Shown piece by piece: positions 1 to 64,000 of a stretch of 64,000 nt of DNA. The notes under the pieces were generated by a model that was not told the DNA's origin, did not search any database, and saw only the letters and a program-made list of their open reading frames with translations. The position numbers and the translations under genes were made by a program. Source of the stretch: Aurelia coerulea (Eukaryota > Cnidaria > Scyphozoa > Semaeostomeae > Ulmaridae); the NCBI GenBank assembly GCA_039566865.1, contig CM076960.1, positions 17,838,501 through 17,902,500 on the forward strand. Reading direction: 5' to 3'. The first letter of the stretch is position 1, and every line of letters begins with the position of its first letter.

Positions 1-254
1 TTGATTTTGGATTTACGATGATTTAAATTTTTTCAAATTTTCCATGAATTCTTTCAAAAATAATTAAAATGCCGCCATTTTTAAGAAAATCAAGATATCC
101 AAACCTTACCATCAAAAATGCAATAGGATTTTACACCCACCTTTTCAAAGATTTGAAAGATTTGAGGCCTATGCTGTCCCAGCCCACAATGCCTTGGAAA
201 GTATTTGATTTCTGTACACAACGCCTGTCCTGTATGATGTTACAAAAATCTTAC

Positions 255-2904: not shown

Positions 2905-3079
2905 GGTTTCAAACTCTCTTGATCACGAAAACCCAATCTGGAATCTCGACTGGAAGGATTCAATTTCTATGGATTTATTTGGATTGAATTGAATGGAATT
3001 CTACATCCCTTGCTTCCCTGCGGGTATGTCAAAATTTGTCTAAGTCAAAATTAAGCTAAGTCAAAAGCTAAGTCAAAAT

Positions 3080-5245: not shown

Positions 5246-6288
5246 TATACGAAAAGCGATTCTACACTGAAGCATCTTTTATCAAGAGGTAAATGAGTTA
5301 ACTTGGGTTTTTTGCAAGGTAATTAGCATGCTCGGGGCATGCTCCTTGGGAGTTCCTTTGATGGATTGGTGAGAGGCCCCCATTTTTGCTAAACAATTGT
5401 ACATACTTGTGGCTATTCTCATTCTCCGTCATTCCTCTTCTAGTTTCTGTGGCTTCTTCGCAGGAAATGTTTTTGTGGCTTTTGAGACAAGAAATTTGAA
5501 TTTCTCCTTTCAGTTCTTCCTTCATAGCTTGCTCTAATCGTAAGGAAATTGAAAATATTTGAAAATTGTGGTAAAATATTGACAGTTCTTAAAAAGTTGT
5601 TTCTTGGTGAAGGGATGGTTGACATTTGAATACGGAAGACTTCGTGAGACATTTTCGTCTGACACTGGTCACAGTGAATGTCAGATGAGAAGGCTGTTAT
5701 TGGGTCCAGGAGAATGAAATGTTAACCACTCCTTGTAAGACAAGAACAGGGCCTCCGACGACGGGGGGGGGGCCGGGGGGCCATGGCCCCCCCCACTTTT
5801 TTGCAAATCATACCGTTCTGAAAGGCAGCTCATTATGTTGTGCTGTGGTAATTTTTTGTATCAAGTTTGGCCCCCCCCCCACTCTTCTGATCTCGTCGGG
5901 GGCCTTGAAGAATATCTGAGAACCAACCTCTGGAAACCACAGCTTTCTCTTTCCATTCTCTAAATAACCATTTCCGATTCTGACTTTCTGCTTATCCGTT
6001 CACTTCTTCTTCGATCTGATTCTTGCTACTTCTGAAGGATGACACGGAAAGCACCCAAGAAAAGGCCTCACTTTCAATGCCTGCCAGTGTACTCTGTTGT
6101 TATTCATCAAGGCTGCTCTTCAAAGGAAATGGGTGTACTTCATAGGAACTTTACATTAATTCTGATGCGCTATAAACATTCAAAATGCTGCAGTTCAACA
6201 GGTAAAAGCTCATTTATGGTCGTGGTAACATGAAATTAGCCTTTCACTGCTTCGAAGATAAGTAAAATCGGTTTAGAAGATTGCAAAC

Positions 6289-7167
6289 ATGAGCCGTCCA
6301 CCATCGGTCATCATCAACTCATCTCAGAAGAGTGGCAACGCCACTATCATGCAAGCCCGGAGTCTCTCTTCGCCTACAGCTAGCGCAAGCCTTTCTCCAT
6401 CTTCATCCAGTAGTAACGATTTAGCAAGTCTTTTCGAATGTCCTGTTTGTTTTGACTATGTCCTTCCGCCGATTTTTCAATGCAGTAGCGGACATTTAGT
6501 TTGTTCAAATTGTAGGCCTAAATTAACAATTTGCCCAACATGTCGCGGGCCGCTGGGGAGCATACGAAACTTAGCGATGGAAAAGGTAGCGAACTCTGTT
6601 CTTTTCCCATGTAAATACAACTCATCTGGATGTTCAGTTACACTACAACACACTCAAAAGACAGATCACGAAGAATCATGTGAATTTAGGCCGTACACTT
6701 GCCCTTGCCCTGGGGCGTCTTGTAAATGGCAGGGATCTTTGGACGCTGTGATGCCTCACCTCATGCATGCACACAAATCAATAACAACTTTACAAGGGGA
6801 AGATATTGTTTTTCTTGCTACTGATATTAATCTGCCTGGAGCAGTTGACTGGGTCATGATGCAATCCTGTTTTGGACATAACTTCATGTTGGTTTTGGAG
6901 AAACAAGAAAAATATGAGGGTCACCAACAATTCTTTGCTGTTGTTCAGCTAATAGGATCAAGAAAGCAAGCTGAGAACTTTGCTTACAGACTAGAGCTCA
7001 ATGGACATCGACGCCGACTAGCATGGGAAGCAACTCCAAGATCTATTCATGATGGAATTCAGTCCGCAATCCTGAACAGTGATTGTCTGGTGTTTGATAC
7101 AAGTATTGCGCAACTGTTTGCAGATAACGGTAACCTAGGTATCAATGTTACCATATCAATGTGTTAG
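6289..7167 (+). CDS. SIAH1: SIAH-type RING E3 ubiquitin ligase (seven in absentia)
   Basis: SIAH proteins are dimeric cytosolic/nuclear E3 ligases that bind substrates through a C-terminal TRAF-like domain and send them to the proteasome. The 292-aa product fits the family length (human SIAH1 282 aa). After a variable Ser-rich N-terminus comes a RING finger (about residues 51-85: [19 protein letters not shown]). Next are the SIAH zinc fingers (about 108-165; CxxxxxxC and HxxxC patterns, [20 protein letters not shown]) and the substrate-binding domain ending [12 protein letters not shown]. All metal ligands are present. The ORF has no intron; the ATG at 6289 sits in the AAACATGAGC context. It could be SIAH1 or the pre-duplication SIAH of invertebrates; the symbol follows closest overall similarity. 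No poly(A) or target duplication was seen that would mark a retrocopy. Confidence 0.96.
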
Positions 7168-23950: not shown

Positions 23951-26900
23951 AACCCACTTCCGTCACGCTCGTTAAAGCGATTGATTAACGTTTTATCTCT
24001 GCTAATTGGCACCGAAATAAAGAAAGCGCACATAAAGCGCATACAAGACAGAAGTTTCCCGCGATCCTATAGCAACATTTGACGTCGGCTTATTTCATGT
24101 TAGACAGATTTGACACCATAAGATGGATAAATCACCATTCATTCATTCATTTAAATTATTTATACAGGGTAAAAACATTCAGTTCATACGGAAAAAAAAA
24201 ACTGCTTTACAATGTGCCCTGTTAAAACAGAAAAGAAAACAAAAAGAAAAAGAAAAAATTAATTACTCAATAAACTCCAAATTCTACTTAATACATTGTC
24301 AGATAAATTCCCTAAAAAAACCTAATTTTAATTATTCCTATCCAAACGAAAAAAGGAAATTAAATTGCAACAGAAAGGAAAACCGATTGACTATGTTCTT
24401 GATGGAAGGAAGTACGTAAAGTTTGTTTTATAATCCTTCCTTTAGTTTTAATTTGAAGTTTGATAGCGAGGGAGACAGTTTGATTTGGTGATCTAGACTA
24501 TTCCAAACGGTAGCCCCTCGATATGCAAATGACTTTTGTCCATTGTTTGTTCTAAACAAAGGAAGTTTCAAGTCAGTTTCGGTGTTTCTTAGCGTCCTCA
24601 TTGCCTGTTCACGCTGTCTTTGAAACATTTGGGCCATATAGTCTGGGCAAAGTTGGTTAATAGATTTGAAAACAGTAGTTGCCGTTTCAAACCTGATCAG
24701 CTCTTTAACTGTTAACCAGCCCAGACCTTTAATAAGGGGCAAGGAGTGTGCATCATAAGCACTATTTGTCACAATACGGGCAGCGCGATTTTGGAGAATT
24801 TGCAATCTTTTTAAGTCTGCCTCAGTGCAACATCCCCATACCGTGCAACAGTATCGTAGATAGGGTTCGACTATACTTCTGTACATGGTTTTTACCGTAC
24901 TGAGTGGGACGTACCTCTTTGCATATCTCAGCATCCCTATCCCTCGCGAAATCTTCGCAGCAATAATGTTGATATGTTCCTTCCAACCTAATGTTTTGTC
25001 AATTTGTATTCCAAGATACTTAGCTTCGTTTATCATCGGGACAACTTCGTCGTCAATAACAAACTTAGGGCTAATGACATCACTGTTAGAAATGTTCTGG
25101 AGTTTTGCCCTGCTACCGATAAGCATAGCTTGAGTTTTCGTAACATTTAGAGACAACTTATTGCCTTCTAACCATAATTTGAGATTGGACAAATCATCAT
25201 TGATTGCTGAATTGATTTCATCAACTGATTTAGAGGAATAAGAGATGCTGGTATCATCTGCATACATAGTAACCTTGGCATTATCAAGTGCAAGTGGTAG
25301 GTCATTAATATACATTAAAAAGAGGAGTGGTCCCAAGCAAGACCCTTGGGGAACTCCATATCGAATACTTTCAATGTTCGATATGTGCCCATTCACCTTA
25401 CAGCACTGTTGTCTCCCACTAAGATAGGATCTGAACCACTCAAGCTCAATACCCCTTATGCCATAAAGTGACAACTTTTCTAATAGGATACTATGGTCTA
25501 CTGTGTCGAAAGCCTTTTTAAGGTCGATGAAAACGACCGCATTGACATTGCCTCTGTCGATGTCTGTGTACCAATCATTCGTGCTCTTGAGTAGACATGT
25601 GACACAAGAGTGTAATGATCGGAACCCAGATTGGTGCAAGTAAAGCAACTTATTTTCATCCAGGTATTGGTAAAGTTGGCCATACAAAACTTTCTCAAAT
25701 AAACGTGAAACCGTTGGTAGGACCGAAATTGGACGGTAGTTAGATTTGAAATTTTCAGGGCCGTCTTTGAAGATAGGTGCAATCCTAGCTGTTTTCCAAC
25801 AATCAGGAAATACACCCCGCCTCAAAGAATTATTATAAATGGTACTCAATGAGCTAGCTAGGACAGGCATTGTTTATATGCAGCAAATAACAAATCAGAT
25901 TGGTTTTTAACTGCAGCTTTCTTTATTCTGTCTCTTACTTGCGAGAGCTTACTTAGCTCTGAAGTGTACCAAGGAGTGTATCGTTCGGCAACCCTCCGTT
26001 TTCTTAAAGGAGCATGTTTTTCAATTATCATCGAAAGCACTTCACACCAGTTCCCTACCTGCTCATTGAGATCAGTACCATTTTGTAAAATCAACGACCA
26101 GTCAATTAATGCAAGGTCCTGCAAAAATGCACTCTCGTTGAATTTTTTCATCTGGCGAGTTGTTACTACTTTATGTTTAGTCTTGAGGGCTCCCCGGAAC
26201 TTTCTAACACAGTAGACCAAGTAGTGATCGCTAAGACCGATTTCGAGAACTCCGGAAGATGTAATATTGTTGATGTGACTTGTTGCAATGTGGTCGATAA
26301 GGGTAGACTGTTGAGAAGTTTCCCTTGTAGGTTTGTTTATGAGTTGTTTAAGCTCATACGAACTGTAGATTTGTTGCATGTGCTTGCTTGGATTATTCAG
26401 ACAGGACACATCTGACGTGCTTGAAAACTTAAGGAAGTCACAATTTGTATCACCAAGGAGTATAAGCTCTTTACCCTCGGTCTCAAGAAACTGCAAGATT
26501 CGATCAAGTTTATCAAAAGTTTCTACAGTGTCACTAGGGGGTCGGTACCATGAAATAACGAAAAATGGTCTGGCTTTTAAAGGCTCGACCTCAATGCACA
26601 ATAATTCAAGCGATTTCTCGGGCAAATCTTTGCGTACATGGTACTTTATGCTATCTTTGATATAGAGAGCAATTCCACCCCCTTCTCGATTTCTGTCACA
26701 TCTCTCAATTTTATAATTTTCAATTTTTAAGAGATCTTTACAGATCTTGCTGTCCAGCTTAGTTTCGTTGAGGGCAAGTATATGGATACCTTTCTCAAAA
26801 AGAAAGTTACTTAGCTCATCATGGTGTCTAAGCAAACTATTGATATTGAGGGATGCAACTACCATCCCCTTACGAAATCCTAGACTTTCTGTTGATGTGC

Positions 26901-29900
26901 TATCCTTATCAACCACATTGCAACAATTCAACTCAAGACTTTCATTGCATACATTGTTATTTCTGTCACTGTTGTTAAATTAACTTTATTTTACTTAATA
27001 GGTTAGCTGAAAATTTTGTGTTCCCATAAAAGTTTAGGTGCAGGCCTAAACGACCAAGATGGTCTCTCTTGATGTTGTCATTGTTGATTATGTCAACGGA
27101 CATCTTCTTTATACCCTGCATTCTTGACTGCAACCAGAATTTTATTTGCTTTAGCATTATCAACTCTCATCATCGGCAGTGACAAGGTGACCGTGCTATT
27201 AGGCAACTCATTCTCAATGTATTCTTTCAGGCTAATGAGTTGGTTGACAATGGCATTTGAATCAGAATTAACAGCATCATTTGTACCGACATGCAAAATT
27301 ACATGAGACGGCTTTTTTCTCAACAGGGGCTTCACATAATCATGCATGTCTTTAACAGTTGAACCAGGGAAATTCCTCACCTTGACATTAGATGGCATTT
27401 TGCGTTCCTCCACTCCATTTAGCATACTGTCCCCAACAATGAGAATAGTTCCAGGCCTCCAGAGACCCTGTTGCTGTGACTGCCCTTTCTGCGAAGGAGG
27501 CAAGTTATCTTTTTGCTGTGGTTGCTGAGACTTGTCAGAGGTGCTTTGACTATTTTGTACCTGTTGTTGCTGCTGCTGTTGGTTCTGTTGCTGTAGAGGT
27601 TGCACACGTTGACTGTACGGTTGTTTGTCATCCAGGTGGGCAGACTGGTTTACTGATTGGCTATTTGCTTTCCCCAGGTTTCCTTTGTTTTCTTTGTTTC
27701 CTTTCTTTCGATTTTGATTTTTTCCTTGTTCTTTTTCTTGCGGTTTTTTCAGAGAATGCATTGCTTCAGCCTTACTTTTTACAAGGTGTTCTTCATATTT
27801 TTCTCTTTTCGCTTTGACGTAGGCTTGCAATTGAGATTCAAAACTTGGTGTTATTTGAGTTTCTTGAGTCTCAGGGGGCTCAGGAGCTGGTTGGTGACTG
27901 CATGTCTCTGGTGAATCCTCCTGGGGACTCAACGTGCAAGTTTCTTGTGCGTTCTCTAGGGGATGTTGTTGACTCCCAAGACTTCCAAGGTTTCAAACCA
28001 TGATGTTTACCCTGGCACAACAACAATTTTTACCCAGAATTGGCACGTTCTTGACTTCATTAGCAGCTTAATTATGTTAAAACAATCGTTTTCTAGAACG
28101 AACGAATCATTAGCCACTTATTGATAGTGATAGTACTCATTATGCAAATAAGTCAACTTTAGAGGATGATGTAACCGGCGGCCTGCACAGAGGCTAGCAT
28201 TCGCAGTATCACCGCAGTTAGAAGGACTACGCTCCTACACAGCTACAGATACTAACGTCACAGGTGAAGTTGAGAGGAAAGGTACAGAATCCCAGCAAAC
28301 AATGGTGCTTTCGGAGACCTCCGTCCCAATATGACAAAAAGTCCTGGGGACGAGGTTGGTTCTGGAGGGTTCTGAATAAGTAATTTTGCGTTATCGTAAA
28401 TCTCACATGACATCTGATTTGAGACAGATGCACCAATAGTTTCATGCACGAACTGAGCAAACGCGAGGAGTAATTACTTTTGATTTTTTTGCGAGGCGAT
28501 TCTCGTTCTTATACAAGGGGCTTGACTTTCTATTGAAGGCGACTTTAGCAGCAACGCTCATCTCTCTGACTGTAGCTAAAAACAGCATCCACGATCATTT
28601 GGGGTTATGAAGAAATCAATATTCAGATATTCTTATGCTTGCTTAGCTCATGACAGACTTTGTAATCATCCAAAAGGATCTTATGTTTTGTTTTGATGGC
28701 GTATACTAGCCAAGACGAATTTTGCTTCGTAAAGTTTTGTTGTTGGCCTTAGTCAAAACAAGAAGATGTTTCGAAATCCTCGCGTCGTTTATAATCTTGA
28801 CATTTATTAAGAAGTTGATGTTGCCAGAATTGTTGCCATAATAACTTTACGGTTTCCTAGGTTTCTTGTGAAAATTACAAACCTTCCGCCACCTCCAATA
28901 CGACATATCAAGCAAAACCTTCGTCCAGCTCAGAGCCGTGGAGCGAGGACTTTTTCTGGACTCTGCTTTTTGTATTAAATGAGCATCAGATAGTTTCACC
29001 ATCAAATTAACTTTTCGTCTTTTTCTTCTAAAGATCATTTGTTCCAAGTCTGGTCGTTGCTATCAATAAGTTTTATCACTCCATGTTCTTTAGCAAGCCT
29101 CAAGAGAAATGCAATATACCATCTAAGGTAAGGAAATTAAAGCTGATCGTTATCATGAACTTAGACTACCCTCACATGAGAAAACTCAGACCGATCTGAG
29201 TTTCAGGTCGGTTTGAAGTTTGCCTGTGTCTGCTAATTTGCCAAAATATTCTCGGATCGGTTTGAGTTCAGCTCACTTGCTCTGCACATGCGCATTTCAC
29301 AAAAAATTTCTTGAATACAAACAAAGCGTGCGTTCCCCTGTCAATCTGAACAATTATGATTGCATTGTTGAAAATTTATCTTGATTGTTTTGATTGCCAA
29401 AGGAACGCAAGGAATGTCACTCACACTTATTTTGAAAATTCATTTCGCCCTGAAATGAAAAAAGTTTCTGCTCACATGAAAATTTCAGGTCGACTTCAAA
29501 ACTCAGACCTACCTGAGAAACCGAAATGAGTTTCAGGTCGATCTGAGTTTCATTTCGCCTGCGTCATGTGAGCACTCCAAGGGCTTCGACCGCAAACCGA
29601 AATGAGCTTCAAACCGATGTGAAACTCAGACCGGTCTGAGTCTGCTCATGTGAGGGTATCCTCTCTGTGTGGATCTGCGTGTCAAATCATTGAATGTGTT
29701 TAGGCTAAATACAACATAGCTAATGGCGATTTTGCACTGAGAATAGTAATCCAATCTTGGTGATCGACGCTTTGGTGGAGGAATCATAGAAATCATCAAC
29801 TGACTTAAGGTGTCCGTAAGGTTGTTTTGATACATTTTAGGGGATGGTGCAGTGGTAGCACGCGTGACTACCAATGGCAAGGTTTATGGCTCGAGTCCCC

Positions 29901-38115: not shown

Positions 38116-41100
38116 TAGCTAAAGGCGATTTTGCACAGAGAATAGTAATCCAAAGTATCTGCGACAATCTGGGTGAGCGAAGCTTTGGTGGAGCCCCACG
38201 TTTCTTCTGACTCGCCCGATAAGTAAGATGGTGAGCCAATGGTATCCTGAGAATAAAGAAAGGACATACCACTGTGCCAACACTGTTTCTCTCCTCCTCA
38301 TCGTCACTTCTCTCATCTCCAGACGATCCACTTTCTGCCATTGTCTCCGATTCCTTCCTTGACAATGATGCTAATTTCCCTGCAAAAAGATAAAGATGTG
38401 TCTTCAGGATACCTAGCTATAACAGTCCCGAAAAATTCATGCATTGTAGCACGAATATTCGTAATATAAAAATTTTTTTTAATTTTTTCATTTCATTTCA
38501 AAATTATTTATGCACGGTCAGTCAGTATGACTGATTTTCAGAGGGTCGTGCCAAAAAATTTACAAATTAAAAATCTACTAATATTAACAATGACAAAAGG
38601 AATCATAATTTATTTGTATAACTAAACGATTGCTTGGCCTCGTGGCAAAGTTCATTCCAGATTTTCGCTCCACGAAATGCCAACTCTTTCTGCCCATCAC
38701 TAGTAATCACAAATGGTACTAGCAAGTCAGTATCGGCATTTTTTAGACTGATAGTATTGCGATCAGAATTCCTGATAAACAATTGTGAGAGATAATCAGG
38801 CGCAAGATTATTAACAAATTTAAATACAAAGGACCAAAAGATGTAATTCTCTGTACCTTGTTCTTTTTGCATGGCCATGGTTGCAGCTTTCTCCTCTGGT
38901 GTTAGCTTATCAGTTGGCTTCGCAGCTCCAGATGATAATTTTTCATAACAAGTATCACAAACACGAATAGGTTTCATGGAAATATCCGGCAATAGGAACT
39001 TCCTTGATGAACAATTTCCGCAGACCACTAATCCACATCTGCGACAATGATGCTGTGAATATAAAAAGAAAGTTGTAGCTTAGGTTTTAGATCGATCAAT
39101 ATTATAAAAAAGAGTTCCTCCGCCTTCTACAGTGAGTGCTAATCATTCATAAAACATCATGACCAGAAATGATTAGATACACCTTGAAGGGGCTCCGTCG
39201 TCAAACAGTAAACAAATCCGTAAACTCGCACGTGTCGGGGATTATCCAGTGTTGATCCATTGTTCTCTGCAGTTTGTTTGGTGGCTTCACCCAAGCTACA
39301 AAAAAGTGACCGTTAAAAATCCACTTATATCCGAGCAATCGTAGAAGATATGAATGTTTGGTTTGTTCCTTAGTGAAGTACAATGATTAATGCCCAAACA
39401 GCAATTTTCATTTTGAAAAAAATGCGAAAATCCTGTGTGATATCACCTTTCAAAAAACTGCAAAAATCATCGTTTTGTTTACATTTTGACGACGGAGCCC
39501 CTTTAAGGGTAGAATGAAGGACTTACTCGTCGATTGATCGCCGTGAATTTTGTTTTCCGACAATGCATGCAGCATGTAGCATCAGAATCCGGCACCCAAA
39601 CCGCAGCATGTTCTTTCGTCGACTTTTTACCCGTTTTTGCAACAAGGTCATCTATACATTTGTTGATATGTGCCATCCACTCCGCTTTTTCTGTTCCGGT
39701 TGCAGCATAAACTGCGAATGATTTACCAGGGCTAATAATCTGCCATCCGTTTCGAAGTCCTGAAATAATTATTATATTGATGTTAGACCAGGCCATAATT
39801 AAAGAGACACAATCGCAAATTTTGTGTGTCTGAAGATCTAAACGAGATTCCTCACGCATGAAGTAGAGACCTCTGTACATTCTGAAAAAATATATTTTTT
39901 ATGCACAAAACCAAAACTTTAATTGACCGAGATATATGAAAAGAACCTTGCAAGGCGAGAATTTGTCTATTGTCTTTCCATTGTCTATGCGCACCCCCTG
40001 CAGGAAAGTATGGGTACAAATATGTTGTTTTCCTTTCGTTTTACTGTTTTATGATACTTCTAGAAGTCGTACGAAACTACTAAATACATATTCAGAATGT
40101 ACAAGGTCTCTTCTTCATGCATGAAGAATCTTGTTGAGATTTTCCAACATCAAAAATTTGCGATTGTTTCTCTTTCAATTCGCATTGACGTTTTGAAGCG
40201 AGTTCCGTGCTTCATCATCAGAATTAAACGTTACAAAAAGCACGTCGTTACATTTATATTCATAAAGACAACATACAGCTAAAGTGCATTTTTACAATTC
40301 CTACGTGTAAAGAAAGTGAATAGGGCAAGCCACAAGGCAAGCTTCAGAGCATCAATGAGAAAGATTCTGGAAACATAGCTGGAGTAGCAGGAAGCGAAAT
40401 CGCTCAAATCAGAAAAAACGATGTTTTTGTGGACGGATTATGCAAAATAATCGCCAAGATAAACAGTTATCCTCTACGTCTATGCAGTACAAAGGAATTT
40501 TACAACTTTCATACCATCTTCATCTTCAAGTCCAAGAATTTTCACTTCTTCAAGTGGGAGAATATGCTGCTTATTATACTGCAGAAAACAGAAAGACAAA
40601 AATCACGATATCTGTTATAAGACATTAAAAATTCCAAAGCATATAAATATATATCATATATATATTATATAAATATATAAATAATAATATTAATAATATT
40701 AATATTAATAATAATAATAATACTAGATTATTAGACTGGTAGACTGATGAAGATTTTTAATCGAAACGTATTTTTATGAAAACAGTTTAATTTCTTTTAA
40801 TAATAATAATACTATTATTACTATTATTATTATTATATTATTATACTATATTATCATTATCAATCAATATTATATTATCATATTATCAATAAAATATATT
40901 ATCTATATCATATTATCATAATAATACTATTATTATTATTAGTATCATTATTATTATTACTAGATAAAAACACAACTGTTAAAACCAGACGTTTTGATTA
41001 TAAAAATCTTCCTCAGTGCTTTTCATTCTGAACAGCCAAGTATTTATAGGTAAAACCTCAAATAAACGTAAGTAAAAAGCCTCCAGGGTATTACGTGAAA

Positions 41101-50889: not shown

Positions 50890-53800
50890 ATGGCTTGTGC
50901 TCCCAATGACTATGAGGTTGAGAAGATATTGAGAAAAAGAACAACATTTGGTTTTACAGAATATTTGGTGAGATGGTTAGGGTACGTCACAAGTTCATTT
51001 TTTCGTTTTAGGCCCATGGCACTTTCTTGAGTTCATTTGAGTATAAAGATAATGAATATGAACAAAATGTATGTGTGTAAAATTTGCCATCAAAATTAAA
51101 ATTACATCTATTATAAAATGTTTGGAAGAAAAAAGAGATATCTAATTACATGTGTACAATATACGGATATTAAGATTAGGATCTAATTTAAAAAACGCCC
51201 CCAGGTTAAAATGGCAGGGATAGCATTTAAAGGTCAGTGTGACCTTGTTTCCATAATGGTCCCTCCAGAGGTGTCATTGAAAGAAAAATTGTATGAAATT
51301 GTACGAAAAGAAAGCAATAAGTAAGCATGGCTATGTACAAAACACAGCTCTTCGGTTTGTTCTGGTTGGTTTGGCACCGACCAAAGTGACAAGTGTGCGA
51401 CAAAACGCGTTTTTGGTTATTCAGCGTTGCTCTTTATTGCAGCCATTAACTTATTTTTCTCCTTTCAAGGTATCAGATTAATTCGTTGTTTCCCTTGCAG
51501 GATTTCAGTGGCGTCGTGGCCGGGGGGGCCAGGGGGGGCCATGGCCCCCCCTGTGAAAATGTTGTCGGAAAATTCGTCAGTTTTTCATCCTTGTCGGAAA
51601 AATCGAAAAAAATCGAATTAATCCATTTTCCTCACATAGCTACTTTATGGCAATCCAAATGTGTACATGAAATATCACTTTTTCGATCGCAAAACGTAGT
51701 TTTTGACGAAAAAGTAGGTTTTTCGGCAAAAACTAGGTCCCTCGTTCGTTTTTCTGCAAAAATTCCTTTTTCAATCGAAAGAAGTGTGTTTTCTGTTGGA
51801 AAAATAGACACATAGGCGCAAAAAGTTTCGGACGAATAAATTTCAGAAAATGCTTTCGGTCAAAACATTCTTGGACTTTTCCCCCGAAAATTTGGTCGTT
51901 TTACAAACATTTTAGTGACTAAAAACGACAAATTTACAATTTATTTTGCACGTTTCATACTTAAAAAATGTCATGCATTTATGGTGTGTGCACCAAGCTT
52001 TCAATGAGTTGCTCGTCAGAATTTGCACAAGTGAATATTGTTGAGGAAGGTGGAAATGATTACTATGTATGTATGTATGTATCATTTTGCCACAATATTT
52101 ACAAGTTATATAATATAAAAATAGATACAATACAATAAATAATGTTAAAAACGTAAAGGAATAACACCCATAATCACAGTGGCAGGGATAGCATTAAAAG
52201 GTCAAGATGACCTTAATTCCATAATGGTCCCCTTAGAGGTGCTGGTACAACGAAAAACGTAAGAAAAAAAAATATACTAAACTGTAGTTTGTTTTCGGTA
52301 TAAAACATGGTTTATAATACCATACCATGATCGGGAGAGATGATGACAAGTCTTAATAGAAGACATATATGTCATCTTTCTCTTTTTGTATGTTTTGGAA
52401 AAAATTCTCTTTGATCTTATGTTTGAATGTGTCGATATTGTTTGTTGATTTAATCTCTGATGAAAGACTATTCCATGTTTTGGGCCCTAGATAAGATAGA
52501 CATTTTTGTCCAGCAGTAGTTTTGCGAAATGGAATATCCAATTTGAACTTGGACCTTCGTGTTGTTCGGCCCTGGTTGACTGGACGGAATATCTCAGCAC
52601 TGTATGCTGGGGCAGTTTCTCTGAAAAACTTCATTATGTTGACACAGACACATTGATCCATCCTGTTCTTTGTAGGGAGCCAATCTATAGACTTGAATTC
52701 TGTGACCCCAATATGTGCTGTGTTTTTTAAATCGAGGTAAAAACGAATGCATTTGTTTTGTGCCGTCTGAATTTTTTTAGACAGCCTCTTATTCAACCCT
52801 GGATACCAAGAAGTGCATGCATAAGATGGGATTACTTTCAGTTCCTGTGATTGGATGCTTATAGAAATGAAGATTAATATCAAGCTATCACGTTGTTATC
52901 TAAAATTTGAAAACGATCTATTTTTCAGTGCTATTGAGGTCCTTTTTTTCGAAATTTCCCATCAAAAACAAATAGTAGATTCTTCAAAATAGGGGCGTTT
53001 TGCAACGATCTAAAGGGCGTGGTCACAGAAAATTTTCCCGGGGGCAAGCCCCCAGACCCCCATTTTTCTTCCCTCCTTGCGCATCTAGCTTCAGCCTCAC
53101 CTCCAACACCAATCAAGTCTCGACAACAGCCTCACCTCCAACAAGAATCGCCTCTTAACAGGACTGCTGCGTCCCTTTGAACAATTCTTCGCTATTATGG
53201 AACTTTTATGTGACAAAATTTCTGAGACATTTTGCCACTTTTTATACATTATATTCCTGCTTAATTTTTGTCGGAAAAATGTCTCTTTGTCGGAAAATTC
53301 TGACCCTTGGCCCCCCCTAAAATCATGCTCCCACGACGCCACTGCAGGATGTAACAGGTTGTCCTCAGCTACAGGTTAATGTGGTTGTTATTCCTTTACG
53401 GGAGGACAACTTTTTATCATCTTTAAATATATCTGGGTCATTGAAAATTAAAAATTGAAAATTTGAAGTCAAATTCTAATGAGAACGCATGTTCGAAAGG
53501 CCTCAGTGTGCCAAAAATCTCTCTTTCTTTGCGTCCGCCTCCTTCATAGTATATAAGTTTTAGTAACCACTTTAGTATCAAGTTTTTAGGTCATTGACAA
53601 GATAGCTCAAAAAGAAAATCGGCTGTTATAGGTTTGACTACTGAATTTTGGAAATTGTTCAAACGGGAGTACTTTTTTGGAATACCGGATGTCCCAAAAT
53701 GATGTATTATTGTTTGATTGCTTACATGTTCACAACCGATGAACCGATTTTCAAAGACTTTGTTTGATTTGATTGCCTAAAGGATAGATTGTATTTTAAG

Positions 53801-56800
53801 ATGTTGATTGCGGTTTTACCAAGGCGTTTTCATTGCGAAAAGAAGATCGATAAACCTGCTTAAATTTAAGTCTTAGATCGCATGAGAAACGACCCATTTT
53901 TCCAGTCAACATTTTAGATGTGATACAAAAGGCTGAACTCCTATTCGTATTCTCTGAACTCAGTATTAACTGAATTCGTATTCTCTGAATGCCATATACT
54001 CTATGAACGACTTCAGCCTTTTGCATCACATCTAAAATGTTGACTGGCAAAGAGGACCGTTTCTTTTTCATGCTATCTAACGCTTGAATTTGAGCGGCTC
54101 TATCGATCTTCTTTTCAACATGAAGAAATCGGCCTAAACCACAGCCAACATCTTCAAATACAATTAGCCTTTCGGCAATCGGATAAAATAAAGTTTTTGA
54201 AATCGGTTCATTGGTTATGGGCATATAAGCAATCAAACGATAATATATCATTTTGGGACACCCGGTGCATGGTAGTAAGAAAAGATCTAATTGTTACAGG
54301 TACACAAAAGATGATGATACTTGGGAGCCGAAAGAAAATCTCCTTGATTGCACGGAAGCTTTGAATGACTACAACAGAAGAGTAGAATCGCAGCGAGGTA
54401 AGCGCAGACGAAGAATGTGGGCGGAATATGACAGGCAGATCAATTACAAAAATCAGAAAGAGAAACTCGTTTTGAAAAGCAAGAAGAGAGCAAGGAAAAG
54501 GAAAGTAACGAAGAAAAACGAATCTTCTCGAGCATGTCAAAAAAAGAGCCTGATACCAGAAAAGAAAGGTTTGGCAAAGAAGACTGTGGGAAGTAACGAA
54601 CATATAAAGAAATCTGGAAGGTTGACCAGTGGCAAAGAATTGACGAAGACAAGCTCAAATTTTCTTGCCGGAGCAGAGAATTTTTGCTCTGACCCGAAGT
54701 TGTCATCAGGCAGAATCTCTGTGCAGGACAAATCAGATCTGATTGGCAATAACGGTAAGATCAATTTATTTAATTTCCTGCTTCGATTCGTTTTTGTGGC
54801 ATGTTGTCTTTTACATCAACTGATGGCTGATGTGTTTGCTATGCAAAACGAAACTGTGATTTGTAAGTCAAGAAATCGGGGGCTGGTGAAACTGTATCAA
54901 TCATTTTCATGGGTGTGGGGTGAGTGGCACTCAAAGTTTAACCTGTTGTTGTGAATTGGCAATGACACGACCGAACCACGACCAAATGCGAAAAACGAGT
55001 ACCTTTGTTATAGAGAAAAAAGTAAGTGGCAGATTGAAATATTTCAAACGTTGTTTTGTCGCTAAAAGACCAGCCTACATTATGAGTATTTTTCGCAATT
55101 TTTTTGGGCACGGGAAGGTTTCCGAATTAAGGATTTTGAGGAAAAGGGCAGGCTTGAAATTCTCAAAAAGTCGTCAAAAACAAGGGATCGATTTGAAGCC
55201 ATTTCAGATCTTCAAAACAACGAGGAGCGTGTTTCATTCTGCCTGAGAATATTTTCAAGTACCTAGGGACTATAAACTTGCTCTGAAGACTTCCGACTCC
55301 CAGTTTGAAATGAAACACGCTCCTCGTTGTTTTGAAGATTTGAAATGGCTGTAAATCGATGCCCTGTTTTTGACGACTTTTGAGGATTTCAGGCATGCTC
55401 TTTTCCTCGAAATCCTTAATTTTGGAAATTTGCCGTGCCGAAAAAATTGCGAAAAATACTCATGGCATGGGCTAGTCTTTTAGCGACAGAACAACGTTTG
55501 AAGCATCTCAATCGGCCACTTAGTTAATTTTCTGTAACAGATTGCGTTGGGTCACTTTTTTCTGGGTCACCCAGTATATTATATGAATATTCAAAACGCA
55601 TTTCTTTGCTCACAAGGCATTAGGATATTTTCATGTTTCAAGGAAAAAAAGTTGCTTTTTGACTAACACGGTAATAGACCTTTTAGCTATTCTACAGAGG
55701 AATTTGAATCGAACGATATTTCGATAGATTTTGTGGAATGTTCGAATGTGTACAAAAGCGATAGAAGCCCTCGCGCCACTCAATCGAGCCTTTTGCGTAA
55801 AAACGAACAAAGATACGGCCCTATTTAGGGTCTTCTGTTGAATAACTTGAAAATCAATAGACCTTTTAGCAGTTCTGAAAAGAATCAGAATCGAACGATA
55901 TTTTGCAATATTTTGTAGAATTTTCGAATGTGCACAATAGTGATAGAAGCTCTAAAGGCCACTCGATCGAACCTTTCGGGTAAAAATGTATAAGAATAAC
56001 GCTCGATCCAGACTCTTTTGTAGAATAGCTAAAGGGTCTATTGAGAAATTTTGACCCTTGGCCATCTTTTTCAAGCTTTAACATTTCAAAATTTGGAGGA
56101 TCCGTTTTTAATTTTATTTTTAGCGACATCGGAAGAAATGCAAAGTTTTGATTTGTCAACGAGTTTAACATTAGAAGCTGACTCGCCAACTAAAGACAGC
56201 CAAGGAAATCAAGTGAAAAAGCGTGATTTAAATACAAAGAAACGGAAGCTGCAATCGGAAATTATTGAAGAACATGATGCTAGCTTGTCTGATACTTCTG
56301 AAATGGTAATCGGAAATAAGAACACGAATTCAAGCCCGAAAAGATCCACAGAAATGTTTGCCCATGATTTGCAGCAACACGAAGCATTGGTCCACCATCA
56401 GCTGGATGCTGTGCCTACTAATTTCACACATACAAAGTCTTTCGAAACACATTCGGATGATTGGCAGCACCAAGCAGCAGTGGTCTACTGCAAAACGGAT
56501 GTTATGCCCATCAATATCACTTCAACATCCAGAGCTCATGGAAATAATTTGCAGCAGCATGCATCTCTGGTCCACCGTGAGACAGCTTCTAGGCCATGTG
56601 AAAGTACCTCTGGTACGTCTTCAGCAACTGCTGCGGATGATTCACAGCAATATGCATCTCTGGTCCAACGTGAGACAGCTTCTAGGCCATGTGAAAGTAC
56701 CTCTGGTACGTCTTTAGCAACTACTGCAGATGATGGCGAAGGTATCGAGGCTTCTCTTGTTACTTCAACTTCAATCGAAGATCAAGAAACATTGGGCCGA

Positions 56801-59800
56801 CATATAGGAGCAGTGGAAATAGGCAGTGGTCAAGATTTCTTGAAAGTGGAAACAGAGAATTGTCAAGATTTGTTGGAAATTGAAGATAGCGTGATGTTGA
56901 TAGCCCAAGGGTCAGACTGGTCGCTCTTCAAGGAAGCTATTGGTTATCATTGCTCAGATAGTGGAAAATTTAGAGGAAAATTGGATAGGAGGGTAGCTGC
57001 TGATTACGGATTCGATGACACTAACGATTGCACTGAATTTAAAGAAAAATTGGATAGAGAAATGGCTGAATATTACGGATTTGATTGCAACAACAACATT
57101 ATTTACCCTGCCAACCAAGAACGAGACCCAGCGAAGGATTTTATGAAAGCAAGTTATGAGAGGGAACACAAATCAGTCAAAGTTATGTCAAAGGGTAAAA
57201 TGGGGTATTCTGATGCTCCATTTAATTCATTCGTAAGGAAAAGACCAGCTAGGGGAAGATCATTGAAACCAGTATCATTGTTGAGGAAAAGGGAACAAAA
57301 TGCTACTGTCCCATCTTCTGACCCACTCCCTCAGCCAGCGGATGAAGCTACAGATCGGAAACATTTAGATAGAACAGCTAGGGGAGGCAAACGGCGTGTG
57401 AGGCGGAGGAATATTAATGGAAAAAGGTTAAGGTTATCAAAGCCCAGGAAGGGAGGAGCTGATTTGGCAGAGGAGAAACGTTCGGAACGTAGGCGAAGGA
57501 ATGATCTTCAGCCTATTCACAACAGCATGGAGGCAGGTTTCGAGGCTCTCTCTTCGGAGCAAATAAAGAAGAGTGTGGTAAGAAAAATTATAGAACGGTT
57601 ACAGCAGAAAGGTTCACTTGGAAACAGAAAGCGGGAAATCCCAATCAGTAGATCCCTAGCCAACTATAGAGCAACAGGAGACATTGAAAATAGTGTACAA
57701 GAGAGTGGAGCAAAAGAAAATAAGAAGGGGAATTTATCCTACAAAGAATCGCAAAGAAAAGTTTGTCATGCTGGATCAAAATCTCGTGAAGATATCGAGA
57801 ATGACGTGGAACAATTGCTTGGCCAGGCTGGCAAGATGTCTACAAAAGCAGGAAGCAGCGAAACAAATAAGATAGGCCAAGAAAATACGTTGTCTGATGG
57901 TGTCTCTCCCTGTAGCAATGACTGTGAAAAAGTAAATGCACAGAGAATGGTTCGTTCAGATAGTCACCAGGATCTTGGTTTACGACAGAATTTTGTCAAA
58001 GCTATCACAGAAAGCTTTGCCAAACTGTCAAAAAAAGGGGACACCAGTAAACAGTCACGATCTATATCAAAAGGTGCAAAATCTGAGCCAAATGTAAATA
58101 AGGAAGTGGGACAGAGAGAGGCTGTTTCCCTGAGAAATGAAGGCATAGTGAGTGAATCATTCATTATAACATCGCAAGAAAGTTTCTCGGAAGATGAGGC
58201 CCCTCCGGAAGCTCCACCTTTGAAAGATTGCCATCTCATCTGCTCAGAGAAGTTTGGTGCGGATGGTACTTGCACAGAAGAGGTGCGGCTGCTGTCTGAG
58301 AGAGATAAATTCCTCACAAGTGAAGTCACATCAGTAGGGAGAGAGCGCGTCCCCTTGTCAGAGGAAGAACAAGGCGAAAGACCAGATGAAAACAATCCAC
58401 GAGGAATTGAAAGCTCTTTAGAGGTGAATTTGAACGATGTTGAGAAGGATCCATGGTCACCTTGTCAAGCCGATTTTCCCCAGGCTGATCTACCAGAGGC
58501 TACCTCAGATCTGCCTGAGGAGGAGCTCTATTGCTCAGAGGTATTTGAAATGATTGAGCCATTTGGGGAGACAGGAGAAGATCCGTTTGCGCCATCAAAG
58601 CACCAATCTGTTTATCATAAAACTTCTCGAGTTAAAAAGAAAGAGTCCACTGAGAAGAAAACAACATGTAAAATTTTACGCAAGATTGATCTTGGTAAAC
58701 TGCCAGGTCTATCAGAAATGAGAGGCGAAATACCCAAGAGGACAAAGAAAGTTAAATTTGAATTGTCTCTTCTGAAAGAAGTACCAATGGCACAAAAGGG
58801 AAATATGGGCTCCGACCGATCATTGTTTACATCAGGGCAACAAGAAACGGAAAACCAGGACACTGAAAGTGCCAAACTGACAGATATACAATTAATTGAG
58901 CAACCATTGTGTACATCGGGGCAACAAGGAATGCAAAACCTAGTGGATTTCACAAGCAACCTTCTCACGGTATCACAAATATCTGTCGAAATTAGTCCTA
59001 CCAAAATAGCAGAATCATCAGAAAAACTTTGGCTGGAAAAGGGTGAAAACCGTATCAGCTACACCGCAGATTCCATGTCAAACGAGAAAGAGAAACAAAT
59101 ACCTGATCAACTGCCGTCTACTTCTGGGCATCAAGAAACGCAAAATCAGGACGCTGAGACTGAAGCAGTCATTAAAAGCCCGGTCAATGTATCACAAGTA
59201 TTCGTTGAAAACAATCCCACTAAAACAGAAGAATCACCAGAGAAGCTTTGCCCGGAAAAGGGTGAAAACCATATCAGCGACACCGCAGATTCCATGTCAG
59301 ACGAGAAAGAGCAGCAAATACCTGATCAACTGCCGTCTACTTCTGGGCATCAAGAAACGCAAAATCAGGACGCTGAGACTGAAGCAGTCATTAAAAGCCC
59401 GGTCAATGTATCACAAGTATTCGTTGAAAACAATCCCACTAAAATAGAAGAATCACCAGAGAAGCTTTGCCAGGAAAGGGGTGAAAACCGTATCAGCTAC
59501 ACCGCAGATTCCATGTCACACGAGAAAGAGCAGCAAATACCTGATCAACTGCCGTGTACTTCTGGGCAGGTCAATGTATCACAAATATTCGTTGAAAACA
59601 GTCCCACTAAAATAGCAGAATCACCAGAGAAACTTTGCACGGAAGAGGGTGAAAACCATATCAGCTACACCGCAGATTCCATGTCACACGAGAAAGAGCA
59701 ACAAATACCTGATCAACTGCCGTCTACTTCTGGGCAGGTCAATGTATCACAAATATTTGTTGCAAACAGTCCCACCAAAATAGCAGATTCACCAGAGAAA

Positions 59801-62800
59801 CTTTGCCTGAAAGAGGGTGAAAACCATATCAGCTACACCGCAGATTCCATGTCACCCGAAGAAAACCAGGAATTACCTGATCAACTGCCATGTACTTCCA
59901 GGCACCAAGGAATCCAAAACGAGGGTATCGAAATTGCAGAATTGACTAACAGTTATGCAAAGATATCACAGCTAGTTATTGAAAACAGTCCTACCAAAGT
60001 AGATGAATCAGGAGAAAGATTTTTAATGGAAGAAGATGAAAACGTCACTAAGCACCCTGTAAAACTCTTTTTATGCGAGAAGGAGAATTATTGTACGTTG
60101 AAGAATTTGCTGCCTGAAAGTCTGCCAAAACTGGATGCGTGTGAAAGAAGCCAGCATTGTTTTGTACAAAGCGAGAATACTCAATTAAACCAAGCTGTAG
60201 CTGATATCAAAGAGGTTGATACAGAGCCTAATATAGTCACATCAACTGAAAACGACGTTCAAACAAGTAGTTTATTTTCAGAAGTGATTGGGCATAGATC
60301 AAATCCACTGGCTTTGTCACAAAAGAAGGCATATGATGAGGTGGCCAATGAAGTCAACAAACTATGTAACGTTCTGTTGTCTGACACAATGCCTAGCAGA
60401 AAATCCCAGGAGCACTTTGTAGCCCAAAAGGAAATCAAACAAAACAAAGATGCCATCAATGCTATTGAACACGTTAGTACAAAATCTGCTGAGAGATGCG
60501 ATCAAAAAGAACTTTCACATATGGAGGTGGGTAAGGGCAAAAGCTTAGAGGATCCTAAGTCATATGCAACAGCTAGTGAGTCTGGTTGCTGTGAAGCTTT
60601 TACTGTGGTAAATCGTCCTTATGCATTTCCTCCTCTGTTGCAAAGAAAATATGAGAATAAGCCATCTGTTTTAAATAACATCAGTTCATTAAATGACTTG
60701 AACTTGGAGGGAGCAAAGGACTTTCATATTCCCATAAGAAGTCAGCAAACAAAGCATACCAATGTGCCCGGGCCACCCCCTCTAGGTCCTCAGCAATCCA
60801 GAAGCCGACTTGATACCAGACCAGCAACTCAGCAGCCTGGAAGCTGGCTTGAAGCCAGGCCACCCCCTCTAGGTCCTCAGCAACCTGGAAGCCGGTTTGA
60901 TACCAGACCAGCAACTCAGCAGCCTGGAAGCTGGCTTGAAGCCAGGCCACCCCCTCTAGGTCCTCAGCAACCTAGAAGCCGGTTTGATACCAGACCAGCA
61001 ACTCAACAGCCTGGAAGCTGGCTTGAATCCAGGCCACCTCCTGTTTGTCCTCGGCAACCTAGAAGTTGGTTTGATACCAGACTAGCTCCTCAGCAAATTG
61101 GAAGCTGGCTTGAAACCAGGCCACCCCCTCCAGTATATGATACTACCAATGTGTGGTACAATCGGCAATGTTTGGGTCAAAGACCTGGATGGAACTGCTA
61201 CTGGCCCTCCTATCAAGGACAAATTAATCCGGTTCAGCAAAGGCTACAGGGGAATTACAACCAATCTCAAGTCAAATATGGACAGGAGACTTACCCGGCG
61301 TTTATGCCACCGGGAAATAATTACAGAGCTGCCAGAAGGTTTGCTTTTCATCCACAGTATCCTGGTGAAGTTGAAGCTTGGAAACTGACTCACCCATCTG
61401 GAAATATGCAGCCTCTCCATCCCTTTCAAAATCAGAGAGGAGACAGAGAAATACATGGTGTAGATGCTGCAAGGGATGAATACATGCACGGTGACAGTAC
61501 ACAATACCCTCTTGGTACAGGTGCTCAACGGTTGAATTGGCATGAACGTGTACCTGTGGACAATGCACAATGCCTCAAGAAGAACACAGTTTTGGCTGAG
61601 AGAAGAAAATCTGAAGACGATTATTTCATAAAAAGGACGAAGACTTCCCTGAAATTACAAAACAATGGGGACACCAAGAAGAGATCAAGTGTGGATGAAA
61701 GTCATTCTTACGAGCCACCAAGTCATGTCAAACTGATTAAAAATAATATACCAATAAAAAGCAAGGATGTGTTCTCTGATATTGATATCCAACGAGCGCT
61801 CAAATGCATTAGTACAACTGAGCTAGAAAATTCTATTTTGCAAAAAGACAGTTTGTGTTGTGACACTACATGCACTCTAGAGGCCAGCTGTGCTAAGCAG
61901 AGCACAGTGCAGATGACATTTTCTCCAGTTTCAAGCCTAGTGGAAGGAACAGTTTCAGATATTGGTATCAGGCAGTCATTACAGGATTCTATTGCGGAAA
62001 TAAAATGTCTGATGAATGACTCAGTGGGTAAAGAAGAAGGTGGCCTACATTGGGAGCATGACCATGCTATACATCGCGATCCGAGGAAACCAAATAACTC
62101 TATAGGAGAGACGCTTGGCGATCCAAAGAAGCCGATGAAGTCAATAGGAGAGATGCTTGGCGATCCAAAGAAGCCAATAAACTCTGTAGGAGAAACACTT
62201 GGCGATCCAAAGAAGCCAATGGACTCGGTAGGAGAGATGCTTGACGATGCAAAGAAGTCAATGGACTCGGTAGGAGAGGTGCTTGGCGATCCAAAGAAGC
62301 CGATGAAGTCAATAGGAGAGATGCTTGGCGATCCAAAGAAGCCAATATACTCTGTAGGAGAGACGCTTGGCCATCCAAAGAAGCCGATGAAGTCAATAGG
62401 AGAGATGCTTGGCGATCCAAAGAAGCCAATAAACTCTGTAGGAGAAACGCTTGATGATCCAAAGAAGCCAATGAACTCGGTAGGAGAGATGCTTGATGAT
62501 CCAAAGAAGCCAATGAACTCAGTAGGAGAGATGCTTGGCGATCCAAAGAAGCCAATATACTCTGTAGGAGAGACGCTTGGCGATCCAAAGAAGCCGACAA
62601 AGTCAATAGGAGAGATGCTTGGCGATCCAAAGAAGCCAATATACTCTGTAGGAGAGACGCTTGATGATCCAAAGAAGCCGATGAAGTCAATAGGAGAGAT
62701 GCTTGGCAATCCAAAGAAGCCGATGAAGTCAATAGGAGAGATGCTTGGCGATCCAAAGAAGCCAATATACTCTGTAGGAGAGACGCTTGGCGATCCAAAG

Positions 62801-64000
62801 AAGCCAATGAAGTCAATAGGAGAGATGCTTGGCGATCCAAAGAAGCCGATGAAGTCAATAGGAGAGATGCTTGGCGATCCAAAGAAGCCAATATACTCTG
62901 TAGGAGAGACGCTTGGCGATCCAAAGAAGCCGATGAAGTCAATAGGAGAGATGCTTGGCGATCCAAAGAAGCCAATAAACTCTGTAGGAGAAACGCTTGA
63001 TGATCCAAAGAAGCCTATGAATTCGGTAGGAGAGATGCTTGATGATCCAAAGAAGCCAATGAACTCGGTAGGAGAGATGCTTGGCGATCCAAAGAAGCCA
63101 ATAGACTCTGTAGGAGAAACGCTTGGTGATCCAAAGAAGCCAATGAACTCAGTAGGAGAGATGCTTGGCGATCCAAAGAAGCCAATAAACTCTGTAGGAG
63201 AAACGCTTGATGATCCAAAGAAGCCAATGGACTCGGTAGGGGAGATGCTTGGCGATCCAAGGAAGCCAATGGACTCAGTAGGAGAAGTGATGCAGACAGT
63301 TCAGAACACCAGTTTGTTTGCAGAGGAAACTCAAACAGTGGTGACGTCAGAGTTGTCATTCGTAAAGCTGAGCAGCGATATTGTTAATAAGTACCACACT
63401 GCTTCTACAGTAAAAGGCAAACGATCAGTTTTGAACATAGGTAACACTACCTCTGTAGCCAATGGTTCGTGGTTACCCAAAGGCCACACTGCCTCTTCGA
63501 CTAAAAACCAAAATTCATTATTAATCAAAGGACAACCTGCCTCTTCTACCAAATGTCAAAAATCATTATTAATCAAAGGACAACCTGCCTCTTCAACTAA
63601 AAACCAAAGGTTATTTTTGATAAAAGGGAAAACTGACTGTTCGACTGAAGGTGAGAGTTCATTACTGTGTGAAGGTCAAGGTTTGACTAACGGTCAAGTT
63701 TCATTATCAACAAAAGGACAACCTGCCTCTTCAAATGAAGGTCATACTGCCTCTTCAACCGAATGTAAAACTTTCAGAATGCAGAGCCTCAAGGAAAGGC
63801 AGATAACTTCTGAGACAAAATCATTATTTCTAAATCAAAATGAGGTAACCGCTGCTTTGAATTCTTTAAATGAAGATAGCTGTGCCAGAAGTGATTCTGC
63901 TTTAACTTTCGATACTTTACCAGGAGGATTTAAGTATGCCATTTTGAATGATGCCAATGGAAATACCGAGAACATCGCTTTGAATTATTTGAAGGATAAA
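50890..64000 (+). CDS. giant chromodomain protein with tandem repeats (partial, open at right edge)
   Basis: Exons: 50890-50981, 54300-54754, and 56124 to the window end, joined TTAGG|G-TAC and AACG|CG-ACA in phase: at least 2,808 residues with no stop. Residues 7-58 form a chromodomain (DYEVEKIL, TEYLVRWLGY, DDDTWEPKENLLDC) with the HP1-type methyl-lysine cage Y8, W29 and Y32, so binding to methylated histone-like peptides is likely. A Lys/Arg-rich stretch (about 58-110) follows, then mostly low-complexity acidic and Ser-rich sequence. In-frame repeats: 31-aa x2 (about 56550-56735), 73/56-aa (59045-59818), 29-aa Pro-rich x4 (60770-61117), 14-aa x28 (62099-63274). The chromodomain is closest in style to CDYL/MPP8, but no ankyrin or hydratase domain is seen, so no family name is given. 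The start at MACAPNDYEVEK was chosen as the Met nearest the domain. Confidence 0.9.
51190..51295. repeat. copy of a LINE 3'-UTR module also found at 52180-52260
   Basis: GGCAGGGATAGCATTTAAAG, GACCTT, CCATAATGGTCC and AGAGGTG occur in the same order at 52180-52245 inside the hAT element. This copy lies outside it, 200 nt away. Confidence 0.65.
52062..52083. repeat. (TATG)n microsatellite
   Basis: Short ACTATGTATGTATGTATGTA run beyond the 3' end of the LINE fragment. Confidence 0.85.
52150..52883 (-). mobile_element. LINE 3' fragment (ORF2 C-terminus) inside the hAT element
   Basis: A 176-aa minus-strand frame (52883-52353) encodes the post-RT region: CTSWYPGLNKRLSKKIQTAQ, KSIDWLPTKNRMD, RRSKFKLDIPFRKTTAGQKC and SYLGPKTWNSLSSEIKS. 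This resembles non-LTR ORF2 C-termini. The reverse transcriptase core is missing (5' truncated). Confidence 0.85.
53685..54265. mobile_element. foldback MITE, CCGGGTGTCCCAAAATGATG family, copy 2
   Basis: CCGGATGTCCCAAAATGATG at the left, CATTTTGGGACACCCGG at the right; arms share GAACCGATTTTCAAA, and an internal pair GACCCATTTTTCCAGTCAAC / TTGACTGGCAAAGAGGACCG is also inverted. It ends 34 nt before exon 2 of the chromodomain gene. Confidence 0.85.
54985..55560. mobile_element. long foldback in intron 2 of the chromodomain gene
   Basis: Left-arm blocks AGTAAGTGGCAGATTGA, CAAACGTTGTT, GTCGCTAAAAGAC and GAGTATTTTTCGCAATTTTT recur inverted at 55440-55530. The inner arms around AACGAGGAGCGTGTTTCATT (55217) and AATGAAACACGCTCC (55308) pair closely. 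Ends not precisely defined. Confidence 0.8.
55676..56039. mobile_element. two tandem AGACCTTTTAGCTATTCT-family MITEs (copies 3 and 4)
   Basis: Copy 3 (55676 to about 55855) starts AGACCTTTTAGCTATTCT with a decayed right end. Copy 4 (55859-56039) starts AGACCTTTTAGCAGTTCT and ends AGAATAGCTAAAGGGTCT. Both contain GAATCGAACGATATTT and TTCGAATGTG. They end about 85 nt before the large third exon. Confidence 0.8.
59045..59818 (+). repeat. coding 73-aa then 56-aa tandem repeats in the chromodomain protein
   Basis: ENRISYTADSMS and ENHISYTADSMS-type starts occur at 59045, 59264, 59483, 59651 and 59819. The spacings are 219, 219, 168 and 168 nt, so two 73-residue and two 56-residue units stay in frame; the shorter form lacks the HQETQNQDAETEA segment. 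Each unit has DQLPSTSG, NVSQ and PTK...ESPEKLC. Confidence 0.95.
60770..61117 (+). repeat. coding Pro-rich 29-aa repeat, four units
   Basis: Four 87-nt units, with consensus RPPPLGPQQPGSRFDTRPAT then QQPGSWLEA, and a partial fifth (RPPPP). Units 1-3 are nearly identical; the fourth is diverged. Confidence 0.95.
62099..63274 (+). repeat. coding 14-aa repeat, 28 consecutive units
   Basis: Exactly 28 units of 42 nt with no insertion or deletion. Consensus S-(I/V)-G-E-(M/T)-L-(G/D)-D-P-K-K-P-(M/I)-(K/N/D/Y). Degenerate half units flank it (DPRKPNN before, SVGEVM after). The long minus-strand open frames across this interval are shadows of the repeat. Confidence 0.97.

Follow-up and report, generated by a model that had tools for sequence, protein, structure and literature searches.

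What kind of protein is encoded by a gene that opens with a complete chromodomain and then continues for thousands of residues through one exon? The question is posed by positions 50,890 to 64,000 of a 64,000-nt stretch of the moon jellyfish Aurelia coerulea (assembly GCA_039566865.1, contig CM076960.1, positions 17,838,501 to 17,902,500), the whole of which we call the window. A preliminary description of the window proposed here a very large protein with a chromodomain but otherwise of no recognized family. Our answer, given tentatively and as something close to an even call, is a five-exon gene for a chromodomain methyl-lysine reader in which LC8, bound to a cluster of TQT-type motifs, and a self-associating coil would together make a multivalent bridge between nucleosomes. 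New here are the C-terminal conserved block, the TQT-type cluster and the heptad coil in a giant chromodomain protein. The predicted gene encodes 3,625 residues (10,878 bases including the stop) in the following exons:

50890..50981, plus strand: exon 1, encoding residues 1–30 and two bases of codon 31, with Y8 and W29 of the aromatic cage.
54300..54754, plus strand: exon 2, encoding the remainder of the chromodomain (with Y32) and then a basic tail.
56124..66317, plus strand, passing the window end at 64000: exon 3, the giant exon of 10,194 nt, with an open frame, a strong acceptor and homologues in the database proteins P0002–P0005.
67434-67499, beyond the window: predicted exon 4, with GT/AG borders.
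74419-74489, beyond the window: predicted exon 5, with GT/AG borders, completing the protein.

All four introns of the predicted gene begin and end in GT/AG. Within the window, the segments 50890-50981, 54300-54754 and 56124-64000 join in frame at such sites to give an uninterrupted 2,808 residues, just as had been described, and the giant exon is indeed open at the window end (stop-to-stop frame 56045-64000). Extending the contig past 64000, as the preliminary description had proposed, gave the complete gene end: the exon 3 frame stays open to a stop at 66332-66334 in the neighboring genome sequence. The exon itself likely ends slightly before that stop, at 66317, because the donor AAG/GTGAGG at 66318 is the top-scoring of 1,226 GTs in 25 kb, because the window, P0003 and P0004 stop or diverge within a few residues after CVFSK, and because P0002 runs on from the same residue into sequence found at 67434-67499 and 74419-74489 (100% identity over 22 residues and 91% over 23 residues for exons 4 and 5, respectively). 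The splice score was built from general splice-site frequencies and used to rank 1,226 GTs and 1,695 AGs in 25 kb; the exon 1 donor (GT at 50982) ranked 19 of 1,226, and the seven splice sites besides the exon 2 acceptor all fell within ranks 1–50. The junction of exons 1 and 2 is supported because the chromodomain runs continuously across intron 1, the open frame of exon 2 alone scoring 24.1 bits for the Pfam Chromo profile, below the cut-off of 25.1, and the joined exons 61 bits. Of several possible start codons, the likeliest is the Met of exon 1, whose Kozak context is strong as judged by eye. An alternative in-frame acceptor at 56076 would lengthen the protein by 16 residues. At the end of the intron that precedes exon 3 (56093-56123), the sequence LEDPFLILFLA is read in frame, 9 of its 11 residues matching LEDPHLISFLA in P0004, so that the intron end is either conserved or coding in another transcript.

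The Chromo match (PF00385) on the joined exons 1 and 2 covered profile positions 1–53 of 53 (E 1e-16), and the three-residue aromatic cage that had been reported at the N-terminus is complete, Y8, W29 and Y32 each aligning with an identical residue of CDYL. Searched against the sequences of solved structures, the domain matched CDYL (63.9 bits), CDY1 (62.1), MPP8 (57.1) and then CDYL2, CBX5 (49.2) and other HP1/CBX proteins. Its likely ligand is methylated H3K9 or a comparable methyl-lysine. The genome (574 Mb) was searched for chromodomains, for paralogues of the C-terminal region and for LC8. It contained 35 Chromo matches, and the best eight of these comprised, as classed by eye, one HP1-like locus (L001), two MPP8/CDYL-like loci (L002 and L004), one unassigned locus (L003) and four in integrase-type frames (L005-L008). 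Elsewhere, at G000:C22:861595-894103, seven equal-scoring chromodomain matches, each with one in-frame TAG, lie at a spacing of ∼5.4 kb, forming a tandem array of a chromodomain-bearing unit.

By sequence comparison, exon 3 is not an accident, because it is matched over most or part of its length by four database proteins. P0003 (3,482 residues) is 54.1% identical to the window over 2,726 aligned residues and P0004 (3,136 residues) 56.2% over 2,459, the two sharing 76.2% identity with each other; the ENA contigs that encode them measure 1.3 and 0.8 Mb, and both proteins begin within exon 3 and are likely single-frame calls from other species. P0002, at 94.8% over 1,139 aligned residues, is a near-copy, likely from this species or a near relative; a stretch around residues 2828-3015 is missing from it and, by eye, it carries additional KKRPR-type repeat copies, differences that may be real variation or a product of the gene model. 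A search with residues 1-1000 (E up to 1e-8) found one protein in the capped set of 7,988 candidates scored, P0005, the EukProt entry Seg1498.6/GoldUCD, which is 85% identical to the query over 76% of its length. The C-terminal 260 residues, searched in the same way (E up to 0.01, 540 candidates), found three proteins, P0002, P0003 and P0004, at 94, 46, and 52%, respectively. The C-terminal region is single copy in its own genome (one match). Across the window, P0003 and P0004, 1,159 of the 3,403 exon 3 residues are identical. The earlier view of the exon as mostly low complexity and repeat-bearing thus stands for five tandem-repeat arrays, described below, and has to give way over these identical residues, which include the following stretches:

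56864..57316, plus strand: residues 430-580, the best-conserved stretch in the N-terminal part of exon 3.
57956..58045, plus strand: a conserved block, residues 794-823, with 24 of 30 residues identical in the window, P0003 and P0004.

Within residues 430-580, three 30-residue segments had 25, 26, and 22 residues identical in the same three sequences, the islands at residues 430-459 and 504-533 accounting for the 25 and the 26.

At the C-terminus, where a search for a conserved domain beyond the window had been suggested, we found a small conserved block (∼residues 3333-3394), then a cluster of TQT-type sites (residues 3391, 3433, 3473, 3490, and 3536, the fourth of them weak), then a heptad coil. 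The tail (residues 3341-3585, a region picked after the cluster had been seen) contains three TQT, a count reached by none of 2,000 shuffles (mean 0.07); the whole protein has four against a mean of 0.85, reached by 33 of 2,000. Site 1 (ESRTTQTD) is identical in the window, P0002, P0003 and P0004, and the IQT of site 2 and the STQ of site 3 are likewise kept in 4/4, counts in which P0002 nearly duplicates the window and P0003 and P0004 share 76% identity. The LC8 dimer recognizes motifs of eight residues in disordered partners, most often TQT-anchored; ESRTTQTD and ISRQIQTD are similar to VSRGTQTE, the optimum from phage display, and RTFSTQT to the validated Bassoon motif AEFSTQT (PMC6607443). 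The protein has the TQT-type anchors in a disordered region that are a feature of LC8 clients, the predicted local distance difference test score (pLDDT) being <50 over the first two sites, a value that a shallow alignment may also explain. An LC8 gene is present in the same genome (89 residues, 86/86 profile positions), and the TQT-type sites are putative LC8-binding sites. In exons 4 and 5, the heptad positions read L-R-F-M-M-I-L-L-L, which 2 of 5,000 shuffles equaled by a simple home-made score.

These elements suggest a mechanism. The N-terminal chromodomain, with its full cage, would read the methyl-lysine mark, the C-terminal TQT-type cluster would bind the LC8 dimer, and the heptad coil beside the cluster would self-associate; given LC8 dimer binding and coil self-association, the protein would bridge marked nucleosomes multivalently. 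Between these ends, the long stretch in which repeat numbers vary would act as a flexible tether, and its conserved islands would recruit partners. Oligomerization and a likely role in silencing repeats are inferred. A bolder version, which we regard as possible but somewhat doubtful, is a jellyfish one-piece heterochromatin polymer, in which a reader on a 3,600-residue tether is zipped into filaments by LC8 and the terminal coil, so that a single molecule would both read the mark and cluster it, as an independent parallel to Panoramix-LC8 in flies and 53BP1-LC8 at DNA breaks.

Several observations weigh against the LC8-bridged reader. No connection with heterochromatin or with transposon control emerged from the analysis. 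In AlphaFold2 models, neither the N-terminal conserved block (three sequences, pLDDT 43.0) nor the C-terminal block (four sequences, pLDDT 42.6) had a confident fold, and the coil exons were found in the window genome and P0002 only. The acceptor AG of exon 2 is weak (rank 380 of 1,695), P0005 starts at residue 243 (Met243), and a search with residues 1-254 (E up to 1e-8, 358 candidates) returned two proteins of 190 and 192 residues that each carry a chromo and a chromo shadow domain and span 20 and 23% of the query, and none that joins the chromodomain to exon 3. Among the motifs, site 2 is followed in P0003 and P0004 by N rather than D or E, site 3 reads TQA in the same two proteins, the weak site 4 is FQM (FHM in P0002), and site 5 reads MQA in P0003. 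Two anchors, TQT 2585 and IQT 3183, fall outside the cluster, and three looser motif patterns were not enriched in the whole protein (reached by 380, 518, and 593 of 2,000 shuffles). Many TQT peptides fail to bind LC8 (PMC6607443).

The alternative that survives best takes up these last points: the TQT motifs and coil would be incidental, and the protein a chromodomain reader with a disordered partner-binding body, as in Polycomb-like or MPP8-like silencing without LC8. We consider this rather unlikely. Three of the five sites do vary between the sequences, and the unenriched looser patterns and the frequent failure of TQT anchors to bind (PMC6607443) fit it as well; however, the first two anchors are the same in all four sequences, within a stretch 62–63% identical to P0003 and P0004, and the tail TQT count is above all 2,000 shuffles.

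A second alternative divides the locus into two neighboring genes, a short chromodomain gene (exons 1 and 2) and a giant-exon gene that begins at an internal Met of exon 3. The start points of P0003, P0004 and P0005, and the search result for residues 1-254, are what it would predict. We nonetheless judge it quite improbable, since P0003 and P0004 look like single-frame calls, unable to cross introns, and since the putative exon 2–3 splice has a strong donor (rank 7 of 1,226), a strong acceptor (rank 18 of 1,695) and matching phases. P0004 also reads FLAT just before its exon 3 match, like the intron end in the window, which would fit a shared acceptor. Calling genes from open reading frames (ORFs) had been expected to miss the gene, and P0003, P0004 and P0005 bear this out: starting inside exon 3, such models miss the chromodomain. 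The antisense ORFs had been taken for shadows, in keeping with which two of the three listed for exon 3, at 61723-63300 and 62100-63014, mostly overlap the 42-nt repeat.

A diverged MPP8 or CDYL orthologue without its C-terminal domain is a third, and very unlikely, explanation, favored by a chromodomain that is nearest to CDYL/CDY and MPP8. The Pfam scan covered residues 1-182 and 184-3585 (with an E limit of 1 in residues 184-2808 and of 10 in residues 2143-3585), and the solved-structure search covered the chromodomain and the C-terminal block only. In residues 184-3585 there was no trustworthy Pfam domain, and nothing matched ankyrin, crotonase, chromo shadow, Tudor, helicase or integrase. 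The crotonase-like domain with which CDYL and CDY end is thus missing from the scanned residues. For MPP8, defined by ankyrin repeats and a PINIT-like domain, there was no ankyrin match, and for HP1/CBX no chromo shadow match (the Pc box of Polycomb-type CBX was not searched). Against solved structures, the C-terminal 257 residues gave one chance-level match (E 2.1), and their profile gave chance-level matches only, led by viral envelope proteins at E 0.18. The protein was also examined for a PxVxL site, and none turned up. These Pfam and solved-structure searches support the preliminary description in leaving the remainder of the protein without a recognized family.

The genome moreover likely has a separate MPP8-like gene, on contig 11, with a chromodomain exon (L020:1298-1426) and a 1,033-residue open frame. 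A tblastn search with human MPP8 sequence gave ankyrin matches at L020:8083-9053 and L021:135-476 (E ∼2e-4 to 4e-5), with identities of 38 and 44% in the ankyrin matches and 23% further C-terminal, where the aligned stretch contains one stop. Because it has no trustworthy Pfam domain elsewhere, and because of this likely MPP8-like gene, the giant protein is, by its domain content, neither MPP8 nor CDYL. The 1,033-residue frame (L020:2014-5112) follows soon after the chromodomain exon of the MPP8-like gene, and this genome may thus tend to place long disordered exons behind its chromodomains. The least credible explanation, to which we give next to no weight, is a retroelement-derived gene or pseudogene with a chromodomain taken from a chromovirus integrase: such integrase-type frames do carry chromodomains in this genome (L005-L008), but by eye their third cage position is D rather than Y (KWKD), and the window chromodomain is N-terminal, matches CDYL best, and belongs to a gene with no Pfam match to reverse transcriptase, integrase or protease.

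Two kinds of Pfam match were rejected. DUF5132 (26.9 bits against a cut-off of 25, residues 2143-3585) is a repeat artefact, because no single stretch passes and the best lies within the 14-residue repeat; HypA and zf-C3HC4, at cysteine pairs, were far under the cut-off. One sequence, IYIDL at residue 3110, is similar to a SUMO-interaction motif.

The five tandem-repeat arrays in the windowed part of exon 3, found with Tandem Repeats Finder (TRF), differ between the sequences:

56552..56734, plus strand: 31-residue repeat, 2.0 copies (TRF period 93).
58970..59898, plus strand: 73- and 56-residue repeats (TRF periods 219 and 168), expanded relative to P0003 and P0004.
60771..61130, plus strand: proline-rich 29-residue repeat, ∼4 copies (TRF period 87).
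62076..63285, plus strand: 14-residue repeat of the GDPKKPMKSIGEML type, 28 counted copies.
63478..63652, plus strand: 16-residue repeat (TRF periods 48 and 96).

Several 40-residue bins of the 58970..59898 array have 0–5% aligned identity. Counted by pattern, the 14-residue repeat occurs 21 times in P0002 (partial), 7 times in P0003 and 11 times in P0004; its mismatches to the consensus number 26, 19, and 62 at codon positions 1, 2, and 3, respectively. Other elements nearby are:

69193-71679, beyond the window in intron 4 (L009/L010): an 829-residue open frame that by eye resembles a Penelope-like element, with an apparent reverse transcriptase and a GIY-YIG-like end.
24431-27992, minus strand: pieces of a non-long terminal repeat (non-LTR) type of element, namely a reverse transcriptase, an endonuclease and a frame whose GDSL-like match lies under the cut-off.
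6277-7164: a single-frame Sina/SIAH-type ubiquitin ligase with a RING, a Sina zinc finger and a TRAF-like domain.
38606-39079, minus strand: a frame with a FYVE zinc finger.

More generally, the locus represents a class of gene lost by ORF-based and standard annotation, with a 10-kb coding exon behind two small ones; the gene models of P0002 and P0005 are cut short. Our literature searches for chromodomain proteins with LC8, or in jellyfish, turned up no protein of such layout among the papers listed; those returned for LC8 dealt, by title and opening of the abstract, mainly with 53BP1 and DNA repair, and the Rhino paper names LC8 in its reference list only. Among known chromodomain proteins, CDYL/CDY provide the best chromodomain sequence matches, and MPP8, of the HUSH complex, shares an N-terminal chromodomain of the same class and a long stretch before its C-terminal domain. 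HP1/CBX proteins share the aromatic-cage chromodomain, but HP1-type proteins have ∼190 residues and a chromo shadow domain, whereas the window protein has 3,625 residues and no shadow match.

In its proposed way of working, the protein is closer to two systems from outside these families. 53BP1, a vertebrate protein, is likewise a methyl-lysine reader with a very long disordered region, and it has three LC8 sites beside its oligomerization domain, LC8 bridging the oligomers (PMC12187134). It differs in that its reader is a Tudor rather than a chromodomain and follows the oligomerization domain, which is a trimer. Given the absence of a tandem Tudor match, by which alone the sequences were compared, the window protein may work like 53BP1 but is no member of its family. 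Panoramix, of the PICTS complex in Drosophila, is not known to have a chromodomain and resembles the proposed design of the window protein in its motif logic, with two motifs rather than a cluster. Its C-terminal TQT motifs recruit LC8/Cut-up for dimerization in heterochromatin silencing, and enforced dimerization substitutes for them (PMC7861614). The PICTS study reports that clear Panx homologues were not identified outside insects and asks whether LC8-driven multimerization in such silencing is ancient (PMC7861614). If our reading is true, a chromodomain protein of a non-insect animal, with LC8-type motifs that are conserved, would allow a direct test of that question elsewhere.

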